Source: a virus. Taken from it: a stretch of DNA of 20,470 bases. Position 1 is the first letter of the stretch. Each line of letters begins with the position of its first letter. The notes beneath the pieces were generated by a model that was not told where the DNA came from, ran no database searches, and saw only the letters and a list, made by a program, of their open reading frames with translations. Where the stretch lies: positions 1-20,470 of IMG/VR virus record IMGVR_UViG_3300027709_000005, one strand, 5' to 3'. A program made the translations under genes and the position numbers. This document shows positions 1,682-20,470 of this stretch, one piece after another.

Positions 1682-1903
1682 ATGAAAACGTACTTAATGG
1701 AAATAGTAACTGGAGACGGAGTAACTACTGTATATCATGGACATACTCCATATAGTAATCTGGCACATAAATGGGCTAGAGATTATACACAAGAAGGAGG
1801 TAGTAGAGTGATAGGGGTATCAACTACCTATGTTAATAATCGAATAAGTAAGGTAGCAAGAATTACAGAAATAGAAGAGTATAAACATGAAATTACTTCT
1901 TGA
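1682..1903 (+). CDS. Hypothetical 73-residue protein
   Basis: This is a soluble-looking small protein with an alternating strand/helix pattern: an N-terminal strand (YLMEIVTGDG), a helix around 'NLAHKWARDY', then strands ending in acidic residues. It has no cysteines, no signal peptide and no recognised motif. It starts 2 bases after the preceding microprotein stop. The sequence upstream is purine-rich (AAAAAGGGAAAA) but is not a clear Shine-Dalgarno. Its stop codon overlaps the -35 box of the promoter at 1900-1928, so it is the last gene of the first transcriptional segment in the window. Function is unknown. Confidence 0.68.
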   Translation: MKTYLMEIVTGDGVTTVYHGHTPYSNLAHKWARDYTQEGGSRVIGVSTTYVNNRISKVARITEIEEYKHEITS

Positions 1904-1928
1904 CATTTATTTTAAAATTTGAGATAAT
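1900..1928 (+). promoter_or_regulatory. Sigma70-type promoter with extended -10, in front of the primase
   Basis: A perfect -35 TTGACA (1900-1905) and a -10 GATAAT (1923-1928) are 17 bases apart, with a TGa extended -10 at 1920-1922. Counting seven positions on from the -10 puts +1 at 1935, exactly the A of the primase ATG. It shares TTCTTGACATT and the downstream TTTGA-ATAATATA elements with the promoter at 6887-6915. Confidence 0.82.
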
Positions 1929-1934
1929 ATAACA

Positions 1935-2771
1935 ATGGATGTAATAGAACTTTTAAATAAACAACAATTAGTTTACACCGTATCTGGACAAGACTTCCAG
2001 ATTAAGTGTTTAAATCCAGATCATGATGACCGTAATCCTTCACTAAGAGTGGACAAGGTTACGGGAGTCATGCATTGTTTTAGTTGTGGATTTAGAGGTA
2101 ATGTATTTACTCATTTCGGGACAGCTCCAAGTGCTAAAGAAGTACGCTTGCATAAAGTAAGAGCAAAAGTAAACGCTATACGATCTGAGAATGTAGGATT
2201 AAAAATACCGGAGAAGTCCACTAGATATGTAGGGTCTTTTCGAGGTATTAGTGCTGATACACTAGCCCAATTCGAGGCATTTACTCATTTTGAGAAAGAG
2301 TATGCTAGTAGATTAGTATTTCCTATACGAGATATCACAGGAAAGGTAAGAGTATTCTTAGGTCGAGCAATGGATAATACTATTGACCCTAAGTATATGA
2401 TTCATCCTCGTGGCAGTAAAATGCCTTTGTTCCCTTCAGTACCAGATATACGAGAAGGAACAATAATATTAGTAGAAGGCATCTTTGATGCTCTTAATCT
2501 TATAGATAAGGGACTCACAAATGCCGTTTGCTGTTTTGGTACAAATAACATGGATATCTATAAAGTATCTTTGTTAAAAATACTAGGAGTAAAAGGAATA
2601 CACATATTTTTTGACGGGGATTTAGCTGGTGAACAGGCTGCAGAAAAAGTAGCAGATTTATGTAATGAGGCAGGTCTACAATCAGATGTAGTCCCTATAG
2701 CAAAAGGAACAGACCCTGGAGATTTAACTCCAGAAAGAATTAATGATTTAAAGGAATTTTTATATGGCTAA
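1935..2771 (+). CDS. dnaG: DnaG-type DNA primase
   Basis: This 278-residue primase makes RNA primers for lagging-strand synthesis. The N-terminus has a CHC2-type zinc ribbon with Cys25, His30, Cys48 and Cys51 (HCFSC). A catalytic-core segment follows near residues 128-144 (FPIRDITGKVRVFLGR), then a TOPRIM domain with VEGIFDAL (Glu181) and FFDGDLAG (Asp227, Asp229). It is much shorter than E. coli DnaG (581 residues) and lacks a recognisable helicase-interaction domain, as in other phage primases. Unlike T7, primase and helicase are separate genes. No Shine-Dalgarno precedes the ATG, and the promoter at 1900-1928 places the transcript start at the ATG itself, so translation may be leaderless. 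It overlaps the polymerase gene by 8 bases. Confidence 0.93.
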   Translation: MDVIELLNKQQLVYTVSGQDFQIKCLNPDHDDRNPSLRVDKVTGVMHCFSCGFRGNVFTHFGTAPSAKEVRLHKVRAKVNAIRSENVGLKIPEKSTRYVGSFRGISADTLAQFEAFTHFEKEYASRLVFPIRDITGKVRVFLGRAMDNTIDPKYMIHPRGSKMPLFPSVPDIREGTIILVEGIFDALNLIDKGLTNAVCCFGTNNMDIYKVSLLKILGVKGIHIFFDGDLAGEQAAEKVADLCNEAGLQSDVVPIAKGTDPGDLTPERINDLKEFLYG

Positions 2772-5046
2772 TGTTGCATTAGTAGAGAAAGTACCAAGTA
2801 AAACTGACTTTGTGAGGCATTTTGAAAATGAGTTTCAATTCGATAGATTTTCACTGTGCTCGGATACGACTAAAAAGAAGATATTAAAGAGAGATGTAGA
2901 TATTGAAATCAGTATAGATGATTACGAGTTCATAATCTTAGTTGGATCAGAAGCATTACAGCATTTTACAAAAGAACGTTCTATAACAGAGCATTGTGGA
3001 CGACTAATAAATGATAAGTTTATACCTGTGATAAACCCAGGTATGTTAGCATTTAAACCCGAAGCTAGAGAGACTTGGGACGATGCTTTGAATAAGTTAA
3101 AGAAGTATATTTCTGGTGAGCTTACTAGTACTAAGATTGATGAGTCTAAGTTCTATGGTATTGTGGAAACACAAGAAGCAATAGAGTGGTTAAAGGCCGC
3201 TAAAGCCAGTAATAGTACTAAAATTGCAGTTGATACTGAGACAACAGGATTATATCCCCGTGATGGGTATATTCTCGGTATTTCTATGTGCGTAGATCCT
3301 GAGACCGCTGTTTACATTAATTCTGATTGTGTTGATGATGAAGTTGTTGATTTAATGCAGTCTATATTCAATGAGAAACAGGTAATAATGCATAACGCTA
3401 AGTTTGACTTGGCTATGTTAGAGTATCATTTCAATTTTGAGTTCCCAACTATAGATGACACGATGTTAATGTCTTATATGTTGAATGAAGTACCAGGAAA
3501 CCACGGATTGAAAGGATTGGCTATCAAACATACTCCATATGGAGACTATGAAAAGCCAATGTATGAATTTATGGACGACTACTGTCGTAGAAACGGACTA
3601 CTCAAGGGAGATTTTACTTGGGATATGATTCCGTTTGATTTAATACAAGTATACGCCGCAATGGATGCGTGTGTTACTTATAGGATCTATGAAGTCTTTG
3701 AAACAGAATTAAACAAAGACGTACAGATCCGTAGAGTTTATAAAAACTTATTAATTCCTGCAATGCGCTTTCTAAAAGACATACAGGAAACGGGTGTCCC
3801 GTTCGATAGAAAAAGACTAGAGATTTCTCAGAATCTAATGGAAGATGATATACAGATAGCCATAGATAAGTTAGAGAAACATCAAGAAGTAAGGAGTTTT
3901 CAAGAGTTTCAGGGCAAAGATTTCAACCCGAACAGTACCCTTCAATTACGAAAGTTATTGTTCGATTTTATAGGACTAAAGCCTACTGGAAAGAAGACAG
4001 GTACAGGAGCCCACTCAACAGATGCAGAAGTCCTACAAGAACTAGGAGAACAACATGAGGTTCCGACACTCATTCTCGACATTAGGCAGAAGAGCAAGAT
4101 TAAGAATACGTACCTTGACAAGATCATTCCACAGTTGGATAGGGACAGCCATCTCCGTACTAATTTTAATCTTCACGGCACTACTTCTGGTCGCCTTAGC
4201 AGTTCCGGCAAATTAAATATGCAACAAATACCCAGAGACAATCCTATTGTCAAAGGGTGTATAAAAGCAAAAGAAGGTCATCAGATAGTTGCAATGGACT
4301 TGACAACTGCTGAAGTATATGTGGCAGCAATATTAGCCAAGGATAATAAGCTACAAAATGTGTTTAGACAAGGCGGTAACTTTCATAGTACAATCGCTAA
4401 AACAGTATTCCACCTACCTTGTGAAGTGGAAGAGGTAGCAGAGTATTACTCTGTTAAAAGACAAGCAGCTAAAGCTGTTACTTTCGGTATTATGTACGGC
4501 GCAGGCCCGCATAAAATATCACAACAAGTCACAAAAGACTCAGGAACATACTTTAGTCTAAATGAAGCTCAAGAAGTAATTAATGATTACTTTGGAGAGT
4601 TTTCTAAGCTAAAATATTGGTTGGAGAATATGAAAGATGAGATTCAACGTAAAGGATTTATCTATTCTATTTTTGGGCGTAAGCGTAGGCTGCCTAATGT
4701 ATTTAGTAGTGATAAGGGAGTTGCCTCCCACGAAGTACGAAGTGGAATTAATTTCCTCGTGCAATCAACTGCTTCAGATATAAACCTACTGGGTGCAATA
4801 GAAATGAATAAGCATATAAAAGAACATGATCTAAAAAGTCGTATCTTTGCTCTTGTTCATGACTCTATTCTAGCAGAAGTACCTGAGCATGAAGTCGATT
4901 ACTATTGTGATAAACTAAAATACTTTATTCAGAAGCCTAGAGAAGGCTGTGTAATAGAGGGAGCCCCCATCGGATGTGACTTTGATGTGGGAGAGGATTA
5001 TAGCTTTGGAAAATTCCAAAAAACATACGGACAGATGGGAACATAG
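2764..5046 (+). CDS. polA: Family A DNA polymerase with 3'-5' exonuclease and glycosylase-like N-terminus
   Basis: This 760-residue protein is the phage replicase. Residues about 50-115 resemble a degenerate family 4-type uracil-DNA glycosylase fold (VGSEAL, SITEHCGR, then a PVINPGML segment) without obvious catalytic residues. The 3'-5' exonuclease follows: Exo I Asp157/Glu159 (DTETTG), Exo II Asp215 (HNAKFDL), Exo III Tyr297/Asp301 (YAAMD). The polymerase domain has TSGRLSS near 474-480, motif A with Asp512 (MDLTTAE), motif B R566-K570-F574-Y578 (RQAAKAVTFGIMYG), and motif C His699-Asp700-Ser701. Motif C thus reads HDS where E. coli Pol I has HDE. The residue equivalent to E. coli F762 is Phe574, a state usually linked to virulent marine phages. 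No 5'-3' nuclease domain is fused; that activity is encoded at 11532-12368. Confidence 0.96.
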   Translation: MANVALVEKVPSKTDFVRHFENEFQFDRFSLCSDTTKKKILKRDVDIEISIDDYEFIILVGSEALQHFTKERSITEHCGRLINDKFIPVINPGMLAFKPEARETWDDALNKLKKYISGELTSTKIDESKFYGIVETQEAIEWLKAAKASNSTKIAVDTETTGLYPRDGYILGISMCVDPETAVYINSDCVDDEVVDLMQSIFNEKQVIMHNAKFDLAMLEYHFNFEFPTIDDTMLMSYMLNEVPGNHGLKGLAIKHTPYGDYEKPMYEFMDDYCRRNGLLKGDFTWDMIPFDLIQVYAAMDACVTYRIYEVFETELNKDVQIRRVYKNLLIPAMRFLKDIQETGVPFDRKRLEISQNLMEDDIQIAIDKLEKHQEVRSFQEFQGKDFNPNSTLQLRKLLFDFIGLKPTGKKTGTGAHSTDAEVLQELGEQHEVPTLILDIRQKSKIKNTYLDKIIPQLDRDSHLRTNFNLHGTTSGRLSSSGKLNMQQIPRDNPIVKGCIKAKEGHQIVAMDLTTAEVYVAAILAKDNKLQNVFRQGGNFHSTIAKTVFHLPCEVEEVAEYYSVKRQAAKAVTFGIMYGAGPHKISQQVTKDSGTYFSLNEAQEVINDYFGEFSKLKYWLENMKDEIQRKGFIYSIFGRKRRLPNVFSSDKGVASHEVRSGINFLVQSTASDINLLGAIEMNKHIKEHDLKSRIFALVHDSILAEVPEHEVDYYCDKLKYFIQKPREGCVIEGAPIGCDFDVGEDYSFGKFQKTYGQMGT

Positions 5047-5134
5047 ATGGAAATGGTTTTACGAAATAGTCGGCGTTATAACGTGTTGTTTAATAGTAAG
5101 TAACATAATTTTAACATGGTTATCGCAGATTTAA
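4985..5134 (+). CDS. Membrane microprotein overlapping polymerase end (42-49 residues)
   Basis: In the frame offset from the polymerase, an open frame runs from ATG 4985 to TAA 5132-5134. It encodes a Lys/Arg/Trp-rich N-terminus (TDRWEHRWKWFYE) and a clear hydrophobic segment at residues 28-46 (IVGVITCCLIVSNIILTWL). A better start may be TTG at 5006 (42 residues), because GGAGAGGA lies just upstream of it. The frame fills the otherwise empty gap between polymerase and the 5116 gene and overlaps that gene by 19 bases. Its amphipathic-then-hydrophobic design looks like real protein rather than chance. Function is unknown. The exact start is uncertain. Confidence 0.6.
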   Translation: MWERIIALENSKKHTDRWEHRWKWFYEIVGVITCCLIVSNIILTWLSQI

Positions 5135-5598
5135 CATTCCCACTTTTTATTTTGTCACAAGATGCAGACATTGAAGAGATCGATGGGATTCTGTTCGCCG
5201 ATGGAAAATGTTTGGACGATAAGAATACACCAGGCTCAACCTTAGGTAGGAGAAGATTACGTACTTCTTATCCTAATTTGTATCCGTTAAGTAAAGCAGT
5301 ACATGATATTCCTTCCCTTTTAAAGTCTTCTGCTAAAAGATTTATAAACGAAGAAGGACAGGTTTTTAGCTATGAGAAGTCTCGTATGGTTCCTTTAAAA
5401 TATCATCTAATAAAGAAAGTGCGAACTAAAGAAACAGCGAGTTTGGTATGGATTGAAGATATTAATTTTCCCTTTGAAGTACCAAGACCGCCCGATGCCG
5501 GTATGACATGGGCAGGTATATTGTATGAACACAGCCATCCGTGGTTGTTGTATGAATTTTCAGAACAAATGAAAAAGGACACAAAACGAAAGATATGA
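5116..5598 (+). CDS. Hypothetical 160-residue protein coupled to the SF2 helicase
   Basis: No family is recognised. The protein is soluble-looking. Residues 1-30 alternate hydrophobic and acidic segments (LTFPLFILSQDADIEEIDG); a basic stretch lies near 44-49 (GRRRLR), and the C-terminus is lysine-rich. A possible metal or nucleotide motif cannot be assigned; HSHP near 138-141 is the only notable His cluster. The ATG at 5116 is the first start after an in-frame TAA at 5101. It lacks a strong Shine-Dalgarno and probably depends on coupling to the overlapping microprotein. Its stop overlaps the helicase ATG (ATGA at 5595-5598), so it is co-translated with that helicase and may be a partner of it; this is inferred from position only. 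Confidence 0.82.
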   Translation: MVIADLTFPLFILSQDADIEEIDGILFADGKCLDDKNTPGSTLGRRRLRTSYPNLYPLSKAVHDIPSLLKSSAKRFINEEGQVFSYEKSRMVPLKYHLIKKVRTKETASLVWIEDINFPFEVPRPPDAGMTWAGILYEHSHPWLLYEFSEQMKKDTKRKI

Positions 5599-6875
5599 AA
5601 GCCGTAGTTTCCGATAAAATCTACATGAATATAGATCCTGCTACTCAGGCTATTATTGATAAAGAGTTAACTTACTCTATACCTTCATATAATCCTATGG
5701 ACCCCCCTACAATTATTAAGAACATGGGCATTATTAAAAAGGGTATGATAACAGTTCCCTCAGGTCGATTCGATTTAGTACCTGAGGAGTATGAAATATC
5801 GGATAAAAGAACGCTTGCGCCGATGGACTTCCCAGATTTTCGCTACGAATTACGTGCGAGCCAAAAAGAGGTTTATGAGGCAATAGAAGACAACTGTATA
5901 ATTAACGCTTGGGTCAGTTGGGGTAAGACATTTACGGGTTTAGCAATCGCAGCTAAACTTAAACAGAAAACATTAGTAATAGTACATACAGTAGCACTAC
6001 GAAGTCAGTGGGAAAAAGAAGTAGAAAAAGTATTTGGATTTAAACCTGCCATAATAGGTAGTGGGAAGTTCGACCTAACAGGTCCAATCGTCATAGGCAA
6101 TGTCCAAACTCTCACAAGGCGAGTGCCCGACATAGCTAATGAATTCGGGACAATCATACTTGATGAGATGCATCATGTATCCTCTCCGACGTTTAGGAAA
6201 ATTATTGATAAATGTCGAGCAAGATATAAGATTGGCCTGTCAGGAACAATCGAGAGAAAGGATGGGAAGCACGTCGTGTTTAGGGATTATTTTAGCCCTA
6301 CAGTCTATGCTCCACCTAAAGAAAATTATATGCCGCCTAGAATAAATATCATCCATTCGGAGATCAGATTTCTAGACGGTGGAGGTACTCCTTGGGCTAA
6401 AAAGATAAATCATTTAGCATACAATGAAGAGTATCAACATGAAATAGCTATCATCGCTGCGGGCTATGCTGCAAAAGGACACAAGGTTTTAGTAGTAGGA
6501 GATAGAGTAGAATTCTTAAAGAAGTGTGCCAATCTAGTGGGAGATAGTGCAATTGTGATAACAGGAGAAACTCCACACGAAGAAAGACCCGCTATGATGG
6601 AGTTGATAAACAAAGATAAAAATGTATTGTTTGGCACACAGTCAATATTTTCAGAAGGAGTGTCTTTAGATGCACTAAGTTGCCTTGTACTAGGCACTCC
6701 TGTAAACAATGATCCGTTATTAACTCAGCTAATTGGTCGAGTAATAAGGATAAAAGAAGGTAAGAAAGACCCTGTAATTGTGGATATTAATTTAAGAGGC
6801 ACCACAGCTAGGAGACAAGCTAGCAATCGTACAGGGTACTACCTTAAGCAGGGATATGAAATCAAAAACATATAG
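5595..6875 (+). CDS. uvsW: UvsW/SSL2-like superfamily 2 helicase
   Basis: This 426-residue protein has the full set of SF2 motifs. A Q-like segment near 87-96 (LRASQKEVYE) precedes motif I at 107-112, read as VSWGKT. Motif II is DEMH at 190-193, motif III SGT at 216-218, and motif VI QLIGRVIR at 378-385. An N-terminal accessory region of about 80 residues precedes the motor, as in T4 UvsW. By family, UvsW unwinds branched DNA and R-loops and helps switch from origin- to recombination-dependent replication; the nearby gp46/47- and gp32-like genes fit that role. The motif I sequence is unusual: the GxGK core is replaced by SWGK. The gene starts at an ATGA overlap and ends 11 bases before the -35 of the next promoter. 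Confidence 0.9.
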   Translation: MKAVVSDKIYMNIDPATQAIIDKELTYSIPSYNPMDPPTIIKNMGIIKKGMITVPSGRFDLVPEEYEISDKRTLAPMDFPDFRYELRASQKEVYEAIEDNCIINAWVSWGKTFTGLAIAAKLKQKTLVIVHTVALRSQWEKEVEKVFGFKPAIIGSGKFDLTGPIVIGNVQTLTRRVPDIANEFGTIILDEMHHVSSPTFRKIIDKCRARYKIGLSGTIERKDGKHVVFRDYFSPTVYAPPKENYMPPRINIIHSEIRFLDGGGTPWAKKINHLAYNEEYQHEIAIIAAGYAAKGHKVLVVGDRVEFLKKCANLVGDSAIVITGETPHEERPAMMELINKDKNVLFGTQSIFSEGVSLDALSCLVLGTPVNNDPLLTQLIGRVIRIKEGKKDPVIVDINLRGTTARRQASNRTGYYLKQGYEIKNI

Positions 6876-6886
6876 AAAAATAGTTC

Positions 6887-6915
6887 TTGACATTCCGAGC
6901 CGACTTTGATATAAT
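6887..6915 (+). promoter_or_regulatory. Consensus extended -10 sigma70-type promoter
   Basis: This has perfect TTGACA (6887-6892), a 17-base spacer, perfect TATAAT (6910-6915) and a TGa extended -10 at 6907-6909. It is the second copy of the arrangement at 1900-1928, with shared flanks. The predicted +1 is near 6921-6923, a few bases downstream of the annotated ATG at 6918. Transcripts from it would therefore lack that ATG and chiefly serve the genes from 7310 onward. Confidence 0.87.
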
Positions 6916-6917
6916 AT

Positions 6918-7319
6918 ATGACACTATTTAATTGGAAAAAAATCGTAAAAGATACAGGTGGAAAAACCAAAGACATACTTGCAATAATGCATTGGCTGAC
7001 CTTTAAACAGGTTCCACAAAGTAAAAACGATATATTATTTAGATATTTTGAAAGAAACTATGCGGGAGACTCCTTTTTAGTGAACGCAGAAAGTCTCTTT
7101 TTTAAAAAACATAATTACGATATAGCTGAGATAATGCAGTACTTTTCTTTAGCAAGTTATCGTAGTTTTGCTAAGTATGTCCACGGACGTACTGTAACAC
7201 TAGACTTCTTTCACGTAGAAGTGGAAGAAGACGCAATCGACAACAACAGACTACTTACTTTAGAGGATGATCTCATCCACTTTAAGTATGAAGACGCAAG
7301 GAGAAAAATATGGCTCTAA
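6918..7319 (+). CDS. Hypothetical 133-residue protein upstream of the gp32-like gene
   Basis: This is a helix-rich protein with aromatic clusters (FNWKK at the N-terminus, DILFRYFERNY, QYFSLASYRSFAKY) and an acidic middle-to-end region (VEVEEDAIDNN, LEDDL). No known family is recognised. The first ATG (6918) lies only 2 bases beyond the -10 box and has no Shine-Dalgarno. On transcripts from the adjacent promoter the usable start would be further in, for example Met24 at 6987, whereas read-through from the helicase operon would allow the full protein. It overlaps the next gene by 10 bases, and that gene's Shine-Dalgarno (AAGGAG) lies inside it. Position before the single-stranded DNA binding protein suggests a DNA replication or repair role, but nothing in the sequence proves it. 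Confidence 0.72.
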   Translation: MTLFNWKKIVKDTGGKTKDILAIMHWLTFKQVPQSKNDILFRYFERNYAGDSFLVNAESLFFKKHNYDIAEIMQYFSLASYRSFAKYVHGRTVTLDFFHVEVEEDAIDNNRLLTLEDDLIHFKYEDARRKIWL

Positions 7320-7942
7320 AATTTGGAGACGCCAAGGGTTCAGCCCAAAAATCATCACTGGTACAATACCAGTACGTAGACGGAGACAACAGTGTGCGAA
7401 TGGTAGGAGATATACTTCCTAGATACGTTTACTGGGTAACCGGAGACAACAACAAAAACATTCCAATGGAGTGTTTGGCATTTAATCGAAACTCTGAGAC
7501 TTTCGATAATGCAGAAACAGATTGGGTCAGGAAGTTTCATCCCGAAAAGAAATGTGGATGGGCATATGCTATTCAGTGTGTCCACAATGGAGAAGTTAAG
7601 ATTCTTAATCTTAAAAAGAAACTTCTTGAGCAAGTAATGCTCGCAGCAGACGATTTAGGTGATCCCACAGATCCAGAAACTGGATGGGATATTAACTTTA
7701 AAAGAGTTAAAACTGGGCCTAACGTATATAACGTTGAGTATCAATTACAGGCTCTAAAATGCAAAGTTCGTGCATTAGACAAAAAAGAACAAGCACTAGT
7801 AGAAGGCTTAAAGTCTATGGAAGAGCTTCTTCCACGACCGACTGCCGACTCTCAAAGAGAGTTTTTAGAAAATGTTAGCAGGGGATCTTCAGAAGTACCT
7901 GCTGAAGCGGAAGAGTTACTCAAAGAGGATTTACCTTACTAA
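7310..7942 (+). CDS. gp32-like single-stranded DNA binding protein
   Basis: The 210-residue protein matches the layout of T4 gp32-type proteins: a short basic, Ser/Gln-rich N-terminus; a beta-rich core with MVGDILPRYVYWV and YAIQCVHNGEVKILNL; a segment GWDINFKRVKTGPNVYNVEYQL like the gp32 core strands; and an acidic tail from about residue 193 ending KEDLPY. The zinc-binding cysteine cluster of T4 gp32 is absent. By family it coats single-stranded DNA at the fork and recruits partners through the acidic tail. The start is well supported by AAGGAG 9 bases upstream. It overlaps the SbcD-like gene by one base (TAATG). The closing DLPY resembles the hydrophobic tip of bacterial SSB tails. The assignment rests on pattern, not on a catalytic motif. 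Confidence 0.78.
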   Translation: MALKFGDAKGSAQKSSLVQYQYVDGDNSVRMVGDILPRYVYWVTGDNNKNIPMECLAFNRNSETFDNAETDWVRKFHPEKKCGWAYAIQCVHNGEVKILNLKKKLLEQVMLAADDLGDPTDPETGWDINFKRVKTGPNVYNVEYQLQALKCKVRALDKKEQALVEGLKSMEELLPRPTADSQREFLENVSRGSSEVPAEAEELLKEDLPY

Positions 7943-15275: not shown

Positions 15276-15527
15276 ATGGCAGACGCGCAAGCCAATGATA
15301 AGCCAGTACTGACTCTTAATGACAAAAATTATGTTATTGAGGACTTGTCAGAGCAGGCTAGATATTGTGTCGCTCAGATTCAAGACTTGGAATCTCAAAT
15401 TGGGCAATCAAAAGCTCGACTTGACCAGCTTGAAGTAGCGAAGCGAGGCTTTACTGATCTTCTGACTACCGAGGTTGAAAAACCCGATGAGCCAGAAGCA
15501 CCAGCAGAAGCTGAGACAGTGCAATAA
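15276..15527 (+). CDS. Small coiled-coil protein (DUF6447-like)
   Basis: This 83-residue protein has a beta-type start (VLTLNDKNYVIEDL) followed by a helical heptad region at about 24-64 (ARYCVAQIQDLESQIGQSKARL) and a Pro/Glu/Ala-rich, acidic tail. This organisation is like small phage proteins of the DUF6447 type, function unknown; the match is by pattern. An AGGAGAA Shine-Dalgarno precedes its ATG. It is the last gene of the rightward block and is followed directly by the terminator hairpin. Confidence 0.8.
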   Translation: MADAQANDKPVLTLNDKNYVIEDLSEQARYCVAQIQDLESQIGQSKARLDQLEVAKRGFTDLLTTEVEKPDEPEAPAEAETVQ

Positions 15528-15528
15528 G

Positions 15529-15553
15529 AAAAGGGGCGTAAAGCCCCTTTTTT
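15529..15553. terminator. Bidirectional Rho-independent terminator between convergent gene blocks
   Basis: A 9-base stem pairs AAAAGGGGC (15529-15537) with GCCCCTTTT across a GTAAA loop and runs into six T residues (15548-15553). On the opposite strand the same hairpin is followed by TTTTCTTATT. It lies between the stop of the coiled-coil gene at 15527 and the stop of the leftward tail gene at 15556, so it can end both transcripts. Confidence 0.92.
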
Positions 15554-15886: not shown

Positions 15887-17329
15887 TTATAATGCTGTCC
15901 AGGAAGACCATTGTGAATTAAAACTTCTTACATATAAATTACTCGTTTGTAATTGACTCCAAATTTGAGTAGTAACATTACTTTGATTTCCAAAAACACA
16001 AGCTGCTCCATAATTGCCTGCTATGGGCTGTCCTCCTGCATTATTTTGAATTCTGTAAAACCCTGTCTTTTTCAAATTGTCCATAGTGGAAGTAATTTCG
16101 TTAGCAGACGCATAAATTGTAGTACCGTCAAGATTCCCGTACGAATCAATAGTCAAAGCTGCAGCTGTACCATTACCCACGGCAGAAGTACTAGTCATAA
16201 ATTCAAGTCTTCCAGAAGTTCCTGAACTGTCGTCTGTTCTTGCTCGAATTAGTGCATAAGCATTACTATCCAGAGCATTTTGAAACCAGATACCCCCTAG
16301 TCCAGTATCGTCAGCTGCTCCAGCTGCTGATTTAAATACTAATCCAGCATCATTAGAACCGCCAACATCTGTTCTTTCTATTTTAATATGGGCAGTACTC
16401 CATCCTGAACCTGTAACATGAAGTGCGTTATCTGGACTTGCTTCTCCGATACCAACATAACCTGAACCATCAATGCGCATTCGCTCTGTAGTACCACCCG
16501 TTTGAAATGCAATAACTTCGCCAGATTCTTGCGCTCTAAGTAGCAATTGATTTTCAGAATCATTGTAGTAAATTAAAGCGCCGTTAGAGACTGAGCCTGT
16601 CTTAAATCCTATTTCCGCTTGTGATGCGTGCTTCAGCGATAACAGCCTGTTCGGACTAGTATTACCAATTCCTACTTTTCCAGTAGTATCAATACGTACA
16701 CGTTCATTCGTAGTTTCCGCAGCATCTGAATTTAGCGTTGTAGTTATTCCTGTATGAAAAGTTACTCCTTTATTGTATGTAAGAGCAATAAAGTTACCGG
16801 CGTCAGAGCCGTGTGCGTGGCGAACAATCGTATTATTAGCAGATCCTGCTTTTATATTATTTCCTAATAGAGTAGCTTGACTGCTTTTTATATTCCCAAT
16901 AGCAGGGTAATTTGTTCCCCAGATAATGTTTGCACCACCATAAGATATAGAAAGGTCTCCACTAAGTGTTACACCGCTATTAAAAGTAGCTGCGCCTGCG
17001 GCTGACATATCAAAAGTAAGAGCATTGACCATGCTGCCACCATCGTTTCCACGAATAAATATATCTGCGTCTGACACATTAGAGACTAAATAAAGTCCTG
17101 ACGAATTTGATATTTGACCAAATAAAGTGCCTCCATCGTGGAAGTTTATGTCGCCTCCGTCAGCATCAAAAGTTATATCTCCACCTACATCTATAGTAAA
17201 ATTAGATGCATGAGCAATATTACCCGCAAAAGTTACGTTCTCACTAGAGTCAATAGTTATAGCTGTAGCGTCCGAAGAATCTGCAATTCCGGTGTCTAAT
17301 AAGCCTCTTGGTATTTTAGTTAGTGCCAT
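15887..17329 (-). CDS. Tail fibre with VGIG repeats and pyocin-knob-like tip
   Basis: The 480-residue fibre begins with a short MALTKI leader, then a long beta-rich shaft. Two copies of an 'ERxRID..G.VGIG...P' repeat lie at about residues 207-225 and 280-298. The tip, about 419-480, is an aromatic/beta module (GFYRIQN, then WSQLQTSNLYVRS, ending WSSWTAL), matching the pyocin-knob fold found at the ends of tail fibres, which binds surface polysaccharide. No protease or autochaperone domain is evident. GGAGAAA lies upstream of its ATG. A receptor-binding role is likely; the specific host sugar is unknown. Confidence 0.88.
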   Translation of the reverse strand: MALTKIPRGLLDTGIADSSDATAITIDSSENVTFAGNIAHASNFTIDVGGDITFDADGGDINFHDGGTLFGQISNSSGLYLVSNVSDADIFIRGNDGGSMVNALTFDMSAAGAATFNSGVTLSGDLSISYGGANIIWGTNYPAIGNIKSSQATLLGNNIKAGSANNTIVRHAHGSDAGNFIALTYNKGVTFHTGITTTLNSDAAETTNERVRIDTTGKVGIGNTSPNRLLSLKHASQAEIGFKTGSVSNGALIYYNDSENQLLLRAQESGEVIAFQTGGTTERMRIDGSGYVGIGEASPDNALHVTGSGWSTAHIKIERTDVGGSNDAGLVFKSAAGAADDTGLGGIWFQNALDSNAYALIRARTDDSSGTSGRLEFMTSTSAVGNGTAAALTIDSYGNLDGTTIYASANEITSTMDNLKKTGFYRIQNNAGGQPIAGNYGAACVFGNQSNVTTQIWSQLQTSNLYVRSFNSQWSSWTAL

Positions 17330-17343
17330 TTATTTCTCCGCTT

Positions 17344-17619
17344 TTAGAGCCCTGCAGCCTCGTCACGCTGTTTACGTGTTTTATAATCACTTCTACCAGT
17401 TACCAAGGTTACAAAGTCTGCTTGGTTTGATGGGATAGGATCTGTAAAGCTATCATCGTTCATTAGCTTTGTGGTCCATTCAGACTGCATACGCTTCCAA
17501 CAATTACTTTGCTTTCCTGTTACTGCTTCTTCTATCCATGTTTTAATGTCAGTCAAGTCATTTTTCATGATTGCTTGCATTGTGTCGTTTATTGTTATTT
17601 CTACTTTTAAGTCTGCCAT
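17344..17619 (-). CDS. Hypothetical 91-residue tail-region protein
   Basis: The soluble, mostly helical protein has a short beta start (LKVEITIND) and Trp-containing helices (IKTWIEEAV, CWKRMQSEW), ending with GRSDYKTRKQRDEAAG. No fold is recognised. A perfect AAGGAGAT Shine-Dalgarno 8 bases before its ATG indicates strong expression. It sits between two fibre genes, 14 bases before the pyocin-knob fibre, and may be a fibre partner or virion part; this is inference from location. Confidence 0.75.
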   Translation of the reverse strand: MADLKVEITINDTMQAIMKNDLTDIKTWIEEAVTGKQSNCWKRMQSEWTTKLMNDDSFTDPIPSNQADFVTLVTGRSDYKTRKQRDEAAGL

Positions 17620-17652
17620 ATTTTATCTCCTTTAAGATAGGTTATTTCGCCT

Positions 17653-19152
17653 TTAGTGCAATAGTGAAACTGATGCGAATGATTGTCCGTCTACACTTGA
17701 TTGTGCTGCCCCACCACTTTGATTCAATTTGAATATAACGGTATCACTCTCGTCCATATCTACAACTCCCGACCAGGTCATGTCCCAATAATCAGAATCA
17801 TGACCAACCTGTGGATCGTATATTGAATAATAAACTCTGTTACTTGTTTCAACATACAATTGATAATAAGCAGCGGAATTATCCATATTTTTTAAATAAA
17901 GATTGCAACACACTAAATATCTACCTGAAGTAGGGGCAGTAAATGTATAATTACTAGTATTAAAATCTCCGTTCTGATCAAATCTGTTACTATTAAATTG
18001 TAGAGTATTAACATTGGCTGAAAAGCTATTCATATCGGCAGAAGTTCCAGCCCAACTTGACTGTCTTGGCATACGAACGTGACCATTAACATCTACACTT
18101 AATCCAAGCTGGGGAGAACCTACAGCGCCCGTATGAAGTGTTATGGCTCCGACTTCTCTATTTACAATGTTGAAATTAGTACCATCAGAAGCAATATCCA
18201 TTCCTCGACCATTTTCATTTCCTGTTGAGGTATTTGTCATCTTAATAGCTGAAGTATTTCCACTACCATTTATTTGTAAAGTTTTAGAATAATAAGAAGT
18301 AGGTGTTGCTTCATTTATTCCTATGTTACCATTAGTTTCAATCCAAAGTTTTGCAGCACCCCCTGTGCCCAATACAAGAGGCATACTGTTTATAGTGTAT
18401 AATCCATCGTTTCCACTAGAAGCATCAATATAAGTAGCAACTTTTCGTGTTCCATCACTATGGACTATTCCCCAATTATTACCTGTTCTTACGTCTAACT
18501 GATAAGAGGGAGCTCCATTAGTTCCTATACCAACTTTGCCAGCAGAATCAATACGCATTCTTTCCGCTGCATTAACTGTAAATGCCATATTTTCACTACC
18601 AGAACTAGTGTTATAAGAAATAATCGCATCATCAGCATCGCCACTATGTCCAAAATTAATTGCTAGTACAGAAGAACTTCCACCTAAAATACTTAATTCA
18701 GTATTGTCATCATCTTCTATAACTAAAACACTATTTGAAGTTGAAGTAGCACCACTTGATGCTTTGCTAATATGAAGTTCTCTGGCAGGATTATTAGTAC
18801 CAATCCCAATCTTATTCGGAACGTAAACTCCACCACTAACAGTTGCGAGTTCTTCTACATTATTAAATCTTAAACTTGCTGCTCCATTTGCAATAAATTG
18901 AGCCAAATACTCACTATTTGCCGCATTTGCAATATATACTGCATCTCCAGCTAATGTTAAATTTCCAGTTGTATTAGTAAGAGTTGTATGTGATCCAGAG
19001 TGTTTTATTACTAAGTCGTTTCCTGTTCCAACCCTAATTTCTTTATTATCCGCCAGAGATACGTGGCCAGGCATAGTTAAATCACCACCGAGTTGATCGC
19101 TAGTAATTGCATCATCTGCTATAACATTGGATGTGATTTTTGTTGTTGCCAT
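17653..19152 (-). CDS. Tail fibre with VGIG repeats and C1q-like tip
   Basis: The 499-residue fibre has an N-terminal leader (MATTKITSNVIADDAI), a beta-rich shaft with IGIG/VGIG-type repeats at about residues 110-125, 200-216 and 270-285, and a C-terminal module at about 374-499. That module has C1q/TNF-like strands (NTLQFNS, then YTFTAPTSGRYLVCCNLYL, DTVIFKLNQ, and a closing ASVSLLH). In this family the C1q-like head trimerises and binds ligands. GGAGT lies before its ATG. It starts 3 bases after the 89-residue gene. Its tip differs completely from those of the neighbouring fibres, while shaft repeats are shared. Confidence 0.88.
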   Translation of the reverse strand: MATTKITSNVIADDAITSDQLGGDLTMPGHVSLADNKEIRVGTGNDLVIKHSGSHTTLTNTTGNLTLAGDAVYIANAANSEYLAQFIANGAASLRFNNVEELATVSGGVYVPNKIGIGTNNPARELHISKASSGATSTSNSVLVIEDDDNTELSILGGSSSVLAINFGHSGDADDAIISYNTSSGSENMAFTVNAAERMRIDSAGKVGIGTNGAPSYQLDVRTGNNWGIVHSDGTRKVATYIDASSGNDGLYTINSMPLVLGTGGAAKLWIETNGNIGINEATPTSYYSKTLQINGSGNTSAIKMTNTSTGNENGRGMDIASDGTNFNIVNREVGAITLHTGAVGSPQLGLSVDVNGHVRMPRQSSWAGTSADMNSFSANVNTLQFNSNRFDQNGDFNTSNYTFTAPTSGRYLVCCNLYLKNMDNSAAYYQLYVETSNRVYYSIYDPQVGHDSDYWDMTWSGVVDMDESDTVIFKLNQSGGAAQSSVDGQSFASVSLLH

Positions 19153-19155
19153 TTA

Positions 19156-19425
19156 TTACTCCGTTATGGGACCTGCTGCTGCTGCCTGTGCTGTTTTATG
19201 TTTTGCTTTCGCGTCATCTGTAAAGTATATGGCAGCAAGAGCTTTTACTTCGTCAGATTCATTAGTTAAATCTGAATTAGGGTCTACCACATGGCGACGA
19301 AAAGTCCTAGATATTTCATCTCCGTCATCTTTAATTACTGTAGCCGTTCGTACTTGAATTACTTTGTAGCCTACTTGAGCTACAATTTCTAGTTTATCTT
19401 GTTCTGTGCTTTTTTCTAAAGCCAT
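19156..19425 (-). CDS. Hypothetical 89-residue tail-region protein
   Basis: The protein begins with charged residues, then two strands (LEIVAQVG, YKVIQVRTATVI), a polar Asp/Arg-rich middle, and an Ala-rich helical end (AKAKHKTAQAAAAGP). No family is recognised. AAGGAGA lies upstream of its ATG. It occupies the same relative place after a fibre as the 91-residue gene, but the two are not similar in sequence. It is probably a virion or tail accessory protein, from context only. Confidence 0.72.
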   Translation of the reverse strand: MALEKSTEQDKLEIVAQVGYKVIQVRTATVIKDDGDEISRTFRRHVVDPNSDLTNESDEVKALAAIYFTDDAKAKHKTAQAAAAGPITE

Positions 19426-19445
19426 TATTTTCTCCTTTTGTGTCC

Positions 19446-19467
19446 ATGCTCATCATCCAATGAGCAT
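19446..19467. repeat. Hairpin in the gap after the rightmost fibre gene
   Basis: Arms ATGCTCAT (19446-19453) and ATGAGCAT (19460-19467) pair perfectly over a 6-base loop. It lies in the 52-base gap between the fibre ending at 19478 and the small gene starting at 19425 (minus strand). No T-run follows on the minus strand, so it does not look like a Rho-independent terminator; an mRNA stability or processing role is possible. Confidence 0.6.
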
Positions 19468-19477
19468 AAGTTTGAAA

Positions 19478-20470
19478 TTAAGTTGAGTGATAGCTAAACT
19501 CGCCTGTTACATAGAGTATGGCACTAGGGGTATCTGTCCAATTTATAATATCCCATGCCCCACCATTAGCCGTTTTATAAAACTGAAAAGTTGCTTGCCC
19601 CGCATTTGGAATAATGAAAGGAAAGTGGCTTGAACCATAAGTTATATTATAAGTCGAAACATTAGCGGGGTAATAACCATTTGTTGATGAATGAATTGTA
19701 AAAGGTAACCCTGATACATAAATTCCTCCCGCTGGACTGTTCGTCCACGTTCTTCCAACATAAAATGTAACAAAAACACGATTTCCAATCTTGGTATAAC
19801 GTCCTGAAGGTGCTTGAGCGCCTCCTCCTGTTGGATTTGTGGTGCCAGCTATTAAAATTGGAGTCCAAGTCCCTTCTTCATAGTCATCAAACAATTCTGC
19901 ACCTAAATTTCCCGATGAGTTGCCAGTAGCTGCGAAACTTATTCCGTGTCCTGATGCAAAAGATAAGTCACCATCATTTATATCAACATTTCCAGCAGAA
20001 TTAATCTTCATTGCAATATTATTGGTAGCTGAATCTACCGAAGGTGAAGTCATAAAATAATGATCCGTAACACCTTTTGCAGAGCTATCTGCACTACCAT
20101 GATATAAACCAGTTTGTGAACTATTTGCATACATTTGTATAAGTCCAAGAGCATAATTGGAATAGTTTCGTGATTCTATTCCAGCCAGTTTGTTACTATT
20201 AGATGTAGCAGCACTAGCAATCATTAATTGATTATACCCGCCTGTATTAATTTCAAGTAAACGAGCAGGAGCATTAGTTCCTATACCGACCTTTTCATCG
20301 TCAAATCTTACATTTTCTACCCATGCAGACCCGTTGTAATACTGAAAAATTGTATCCCCTGCGGATTTGATGATTGTATTAGAGCCGTCCCCAACCATTG
20401 CTCCAATTTGTAATTCTTGCCCCGATGTATTACGAATTGTTCCGCCTGTATTCATAATAATATCGTGATT
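19478..20470 (-). CDS. Tail fibre with EGTWTP-type tip, 5' end cut by window
   Basis: The frame stays open through base 20470, so the N-terminus lies outside; the Met at 20455 is internal. The visible shaft has a VGIG-type repeat (KVGIGTNAPARLLEI) near 20260-20300 and segments such as SAGNVDINDGD. The C-terminal module starts with a DDYEEGTWTP motif near 19880 and continues with GRYTKIGNRVFVTFYVG to the end, a module common at the tips of marine phage fibres. Function: receptor binding, by analogy. It is the first of the three fibre genes in transcription order within this window. Confidence 0.88.
   Translation of the reverse strand, partial: NHDIIMNTGGTIRNTSGQELQIGAMVGDGSNTIIKSAGDTIFQYYNGSAWVENVRFDDEKVGIGTNAPARLLEINTGGYNQLMIASAATSNSNKLAGIESRNYSNYALGLIQMYANSSQTGLYHGSADSSAKGVTDHYFMTSPSVDSATNNIAMKINSAGNVDINDGDLSFASGHGISFAATGNSSGNLGAELFDDYEEGTWTPILIAGTTNPTGGGAQAPSGRYTKIGNRVFVTFYVGRTWTNSPAGGIYVSGLPFTIHSSTNGYYPANVSTYNITYGSSHFPFIIPNAGQATFQFYKTANGGAWDIINWTDTPSAILYVTGEFSYHST

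Follow-up and report, generated by a model that had tools for sequence, protein, structure and literature searches.

Background

Leaderless mRNAs, in which the start codon lies at the 5' end of the transcript, are documented in phages and in bacteria. The cI mRNA of phage lambda is a known leaderless phage mRNA (PMC9031893), and experimental work in Deinococcus found the -10 element of leaderless genes placed 6-7 nt before the ORF (PMC12340547). In Shigella, a short isoform of VirF is made from a leaderless internal transcript (PMC5101355). In phage T5 (AY543070), the promoters P31A and P31B stand before the T5.125-D11 gene pair, and ATATT in the discriminator is a feature of T5 early promoters (PMC7472727).

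A T5-like replication block in a marine virus

We analysed a 20,470-base IMG/VR virus record carrying a T5-like replication block; the whole of this stretch is called the window below. The virus is marine and related to phage T5, with which it shares the order DnaB-primase-Pol-orf-D10 helicase-T5.125-D11-D12-D13; the same gene order is found in Vibrio phages VCPH, D51, pVp-1 and Gary. The features of the window that bear on this analysis were as follows.

1-1248: DnaB-type helicase gene
1900-1928, plus strand: promoter P1, TTGACA (1900-1905), 17 nt, GATAAT (1923-1928), TGA extended -10; score 11/12
1935, plus strand: predicted P1 transcript start, on the A of the primase ATG (1935-1936 with a 6-7 nt discriminator); end of the -10 plus 7, the spacing of Deinococcus leaderless genes
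1935-2771, plus strand: DNA primase gene, 278 residues, no Shine-Dalgarno; phrog_47, E = 4e-42; 41% identity to T5 primase
2764-5046: family A polymerase gene
Between the polymerase and D10-like helicase genes: gene for a 160-residue protein
5595-6875, plus strand: T5 D10-like helicase gene, immediately 5' of P2; phrog_16 and synteny with T5
6887-6915, plus strand: promoter P2, TTGACA (6887-6892), 17 nt, TATAAT (6910-6915), TGA extended -10; score 12/12; positional homologue of T5 P31B
6918-7319, plus strand: gene for a 133-residue protein of the T5.125 family, ATG 2 nt after the -10, no Shine-Dalgarno; phrog_4258, E = 5e-16, alignment and AlphaFold model
6921-6923, plus strand: predicted P2 transcript start, just past the ATG of the 133-residue protein; end of the -10 plus 6 to 8
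7298-7303, plus strand: Shine-Dalgarno AAGGAG of the single-strand DNA-binding protein (SSB) gene, 6 nt before the SSB ATG
7310-7942, plus strand: D11-like SSB gene, 210 residues; phrog_1607, E = 2e-29, and T5 D11-like matches

SbcD and SbcC genes follow SSB, with flap nuclease and ribonucleotide reductase genes, assigned by translation, farther along. Three long, repeat-rich, fibre-like proteins are encoded on the minus strand at 15887-20455, opposing the replication genes, and two of them begin MALTKIPRGLLDTG and MATTKITSNVIADD; a strong terminator-like hairpin at 15527-15553 separates the replication block from this fibre-like block. A search of bacterial genomes for a host returned two matches only (L149 and L150), members of the 133-residue family in contigs binned with Bacteroidetes MAGs. 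These contigs are probably phage, and the hint of a Bacteroidetes host that they give is weak and not reliable.

Two consensus promoters of one class

The first-pass annotation of this DNA had placed promoters at 1900-1928 and 6887-6915, and both are present as described, with the 17-nt spacer, the TGA extended -10 and common flanks (TTC before and ATT after the -35, TGA before and ATA after the -10). Ranked with all 61 sigma70-like sites of the window they take the first two places, and they are among the few with a preceding TG. The motif search that it had proposed also bore it out: the window contains two copies of TTGACA-N14-TGn-NATAAT and 300 dinucleotide shuffles gave none, and the sites are conserved in relatives, so that a chance origin of the promoters was ruled out. 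The pair had been called a duplicated promoter. Near-identity of the two sites holds, but both belong to a promoter class that occurs throughout these phages. In the relative L050, P2 (about 3330-3360) is nearly identical in spacer and -10 to P1 of the window at 1900-1935 (TTTATTCCAAAATTTGA-GATAAT versus TTTATTTTAAAATTTGA-GATAAT), which suggests that sequence may have passed between P1 and P2 copies.

P2 matches T5 P31B in place, as a sigma70 consensus between D10 and the T5.125-D11 pair, and in having TATAAT with an AT-rich discriminator. The discriminator reads ATATATG at P2 and ATAACAATG at P1, and ATATATT in some relatives. T5 has no promoter directly before the primase in the region read, whereas the window has P1 there. 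As part of the explanation that we favour and consider likely as a whole, both sites would be sigma70-type promoters of the T5 early class.

The distance from the -10 to the ATG is 6 nt at the primase (ATG 1935) and 2 nt at the gene for the 133-residue protein (ATG 6918). The usual discriminator length is 6-7 nt. The computed starts at 1935-1936 and 6922-6923 agree with the earlier proposal of a +1 on the A of the primase ATG and a few bases past the ATG at 6918, and the P-31B feature of T5 as annotated terminates 8 nt past its -10. Neither start has a Shine-Dalgarno, as had also been claimed; several other genes of the window lack a strong one too, so this absence alone is not special.

P1 and the primase start codon

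The region upstream of the primase was read in 46 related loci. P1 was kept in the window's own clade (L003-L010) as TTGACA-N17-GATAAT with the ATG at 6 nt, and a second clade (L011-L046 type; primase 47-49% identical) carried TTGACA-N17-TATAAT with the ATG at 7-8 nt. Other relatives had a promoter about 20-30 nt upstream of a primase with a Shine-Dalgarno, and still others had no promoter before the primase, which overlapped the preceding gene.

We then compared these spacings with 291 distinct exact TTGACA-N17-TATAAT promoters in viral contigs, a sample in which a search blind to ATG position was pooled with all other loci; 236 of them have an ORF of at least 60 codons within 60 nt. Among genes outside the 133-residue family that lack a Shine-Dalgarno, 46 of 94 lay at 6-8 nt and none at 3-5 nt, which argues that the transcript start is fixed about 7 nt after the -10. 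Genes with a Shine-Dalgarno in the same sample had distances centred on 23-30 nt. A second promoter sample, with a different -35 flank, gave a smaller group at 5-8 nt (7/88).

The primase shows two marks of a leaderless gene, a -10 placed 6-8 nt before the start codon and no Shine-Dalgarno. The spacing kept in relatives, the sharp peak at 6-8 nt and the Deinococcus spacing together make the leaderless translation proposed for the primase well supported: most likely, P1 would give an mRNA whose 5' end is the primase AUG. P1 resembles the leaderless genes of Deinococcus-Thermus in having its -10 6 nt before an ATG without a Shine-Dalgarno; those are host genes with a TANNNT -10 motif, whereas P1 is a phage promoter with full -35 and -10 consensus (PMC12340547). 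The predicted P1 RNA would also share with lambda cI the character of a leaderless phage mRNA, but cI is one repressor gene (PMC9031893), while in the phages studied here leaderless expression is predicted from sequence for at least 15 gene families. The 46 genes at 6-8 nt span 15 families, including primase, DNA polymerases and an apparent NAD-dependent ligase, and leaderless expression may therefore be widespread in marine phages.

P2 abuts or overlaps the start codon in relatives

The position of P2 relative to its downstream ATG (here called the offset, counted from the -10) was then read in relatives. Searching viral contigs by alignment turned up at least 544 relatives of the 133-residue protein; one tblastn query, assembled from Klebsiella and T5 family sequence, served only for finding records. 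In 67 of 68 distinct relatives, a promoter scoring 11-12/12 had its -10 at an offset of -2, 0, 1 or 2 from the ATG; in the -2 arrangement, TATAATG, the start codon and the -10 hexamer overlap. The 231 distinct sequences, pooled from searches that included offset-selected scans and hence not giving unbiased frequencies, were distributed over offsets of -2 (24), 0 (46), 1 (11), 2 (81), 3 (56), 4 (4), 5 (1), 6 (1), 7 (2), 8 (1), 10 (3) and 12 (1), that is, 218 at -2 to +3, 5 at 4-5 and 8 at 6 or more. The scan for offsets of 3-14 was complete, and most of its distinct matches were at 3. The few relatives at 5-12 sit mostly on two early branches.

The ATG-blind sample gave the same picture, with promoters that have an ORF start at -2 to +2 coming nearly all from the 133-residue family; in the pooled sample, 54 of 60 members of this family were at these offsets compared to 5 of 176 other genes. 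The family and the other genes without a Shine-Dalgarno are mirror images in their offsets, and the break falls at the point where the AUG would enter a transcript starting 7 nt after the -10. Since the -10 abuts or overlaps the ATG, P2 transcripts should lack the AUG. The start codon is accordingly not at the expected 5' end, as it would be in a leaderless gene; at offset 2 the ATG precedes the expected +1. The earlier claim that P2 transcription starts inside the ORF is upheld, and is more general than the window alone.

It could be argued that host RNA polymerase starts unusually near the -10 at these promoters, so that the 133-residue gene is leaderless as well; translation of the protein from its ATG is clear, and many other genes of these phages seem to be leaderless. 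We regard this as highly improbable, because the offsets range from -2 to +3, with the ATG within the -10 hexamer itself at -2, and other genes of the same phages lie at 6-8 and none at 3-5, with a start about 7 nt after the -10.

Compaction of the genome was also considered, in which loss of the leader slid P2 against the ORF and exclusion of the AUG has no function. The intergenic space is indeed tiny: where measured, the helicase stop is no more than about 16 nt from the -35. The offsets -2, 0 and 2 are, moreover, separated by AT units. However, a tree of 136 representatives (132 columns, 136 rows, many forks open) requires at least 31 changes of the offset, nearly all of which stay at 3 or below, but about 5 changes between the zones of up to 3, 4-5, and 6 and above. 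The offsets of 6-8, commonest for other genes without a Shine-Dalgarno, are almost never used by the family. Compaction alone thus appears unlikely, and the explanation that we prefer would have the offset between -10 and ATG under selection that keeps the AUG off the P2 transcript. The few relatives at offsets of 6-12, which keep the AUG on the P2 transcript, count against it.

A separate gene in L043 (989 onward), beginning MDNVNKPKHYRSHP, likewise starts with an ATG 2 nt downstream of a perfect -10 and may be another example of a cut-off start codon; its product presumably resembles DUF3310 proteins.

Evidence that the 133-residue protein is translated from its first codon

The 133-residue protein aligns with T5.125 and its Vibrio phage homologues, and is a T5.125 homologue on the basis of its sequence. 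The phrog_4258 profile match covers residues 1-126 of 133. Its AlphaFold model has a mean pLDDT of 90, and a fold search in BFVD returned family members only, including the pVp-1 and PM135 proteins; searches of Pfam and PDB with the protein gave no match. A misplaced start codon was considered and rejected, as the N-terminal codons are coding-like and the -10 itself supplies an in-frame TAA (6912-6914) two codons upstream.

The first-pass annotation had suggested an internal start or alternative isoforms for this protein. Such a pair, with the complete protein made from upstream RNA and a shorter form by internal initiation on P2 RNA, has a precedent in VirF, where the transcript start likewise lies in or near an ORF and an internal AUG gives a shorter protein from leaderless mRNA (PMC5101355). 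P2 RNA would begin within the ORF, and the annotated T5.125 corresponds to a short form. In the 133-residue gene, unlike virF, no internal start is conserved: within codons 2-60, none is a start codon in as many as half of the 68 relatives, the methionine M24 of the window's protein is I, L or F elsewhere in the family, and the expected start falls in differing reading phases among relatives. The N-terminal strand and helix are modelled at pLDDT 96. The pattern of change in codons 8-23 is that of translated sequence, and the high pS (about 0.65, near saturation) and low pN (about 0.15) of codons 11-23 show that this stretch is translated. The short form of T5 appears to be an annotation problem, its N-terminus being encoded in frame behind a Shine-Dalgarno and an ATT. 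We therefore consider two forms very unlikely. With a translated N-terminus and no conserved internal start, translation would begin at the ATG, on RNA that contains the AUG. Codons 2-7 are near-frozen, with a synonymous pS of 0.01-0.03 compared to 0.11-0.17 at the same SSB codons, which fits an extra role at the DNA level as the initial transcribed stretch of P2.

Start of the gene across the T5 series

In T5, the promoter is followed by a leader of about 20 nt, the Shine-Dalgarno GAGGAG and probably an ATT start, whereas the -10 of the marine phages lies directly before the ATG or overlaps it. A long distance from -10 to start, with a Shine-Dalgarno, was found in T5, S132, Shivani, D51, D232, PSTCR5 and DU_PP_V. 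The distance was 19 nt in Gary, Ceto and pVp-1, 11 nt without a Shine-Dalgarno in Vibrio phages VCPH and VspSw_1, and 4 nt without one in Klebsiella Sugarlandvirus, where a second promoter lies about 100 nt upstream. T5, STWB21 and KPP2018 have ATT in place of ATG shortly after GAGGAG, and the conserved N-terminus continues in this frame; at the position of this ATT, S132 and Shivani have ATG and D232 has GTG. These starts (ATT, GTG, or short and without a Shine-Dalgarno) indicate that a weak or cut-off start recurs in this gene, and a weak start may keep the protein low relative to SSB.

Two annotations in the series appear to need revision. The annotated start of T5.125 (L061, AY543070, 9147-9509) is apparently 78 nt too far downstream, the ATT frame encoding the N-terminus IKFFDYEKLYLLARGNSD..., and gp10 of pVp-1 (L065, JQ340389), annotated at 67 residues, is truncated, the full homologue beginning well upstream as in Gary gp48.

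SSB as the probable gene served by P2

The SSB gene has its own Shine-Dalgarno in 88 of 90 relatives. No other promoter scoring at least 11/12 was found in the 1 kb upstream of P2 in 105 loci, and no convincing same-strand terminator was found between P1 and P2 in the window. Taken together, these results point to P2 as the promoter of SSB and to read-through as the source of the 133-residue protein.

We propose that P2 descended from T5 P31B, which stands after the D10 helicase gene and before the T5.125-D11 (SSB) pair, and that its -10 was drawn up to the ATG of the T5.125 homologue, or over it, in the marine relatives. Transcripts from P2 would begin past this AUG, express no 133-residue protein and supply mainly SSB, through the strong Shine-Dalgarno of that gene; the 133-residue protein would come only from upstream read-through RNA, which in the window would start at P1, about 5 kb upstream. 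The promoters, their spacings and conservation, the translated N-terminus and the SSB Shine-Dalgarno are read from the DNA itself, and from them we infer the transcript starts, expression by read-through and the purpose of the arrangement. The model as a whole, with a leaderless primase from P1, P2 serving SSB, the 133-residue protein made by read-through and the offset selected, seems to us likely. Against it, the AUG of the 133-residue gene has no Shine-Dalgarno on read-through RNA either, and P2 RNA would hold about 390 nt of untranslated ORF ahead of SSB.

We give about even weight to a broader proposal, that eviction of the start codon is a selected device: a consensus promoter would sit atop a start codon in hundreds of marine T5-like phages and express the next gene only, promoter use would decide whether the 133-residue protein is made, and many other genes of these phages would be leaderless. 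A limited literature search found no published description of such an arrangement of promoter and start codon.

Implications

Avoidance of the leaderless-gene zone by the 133-residue family offers a yardstick, read from sequence, for transcript starts in uncultured phages. The primase and the other genes at the same spacing suggest that leaderless replication genes are widespread among marine phages, from which few mRNAs of this kind have been recorded. If true, placing a promoter upon a start codon would be a simple way to tie the expression of one operon gene to promoter choice. This gene probably begins with ATT in T5, has GTG in some of the Vibrio phages and a cut-off AUG in the marine ones; low expression of the T5.125 family, a conserved partner gene of SSB, thus seems to have been selected for repeatedly.
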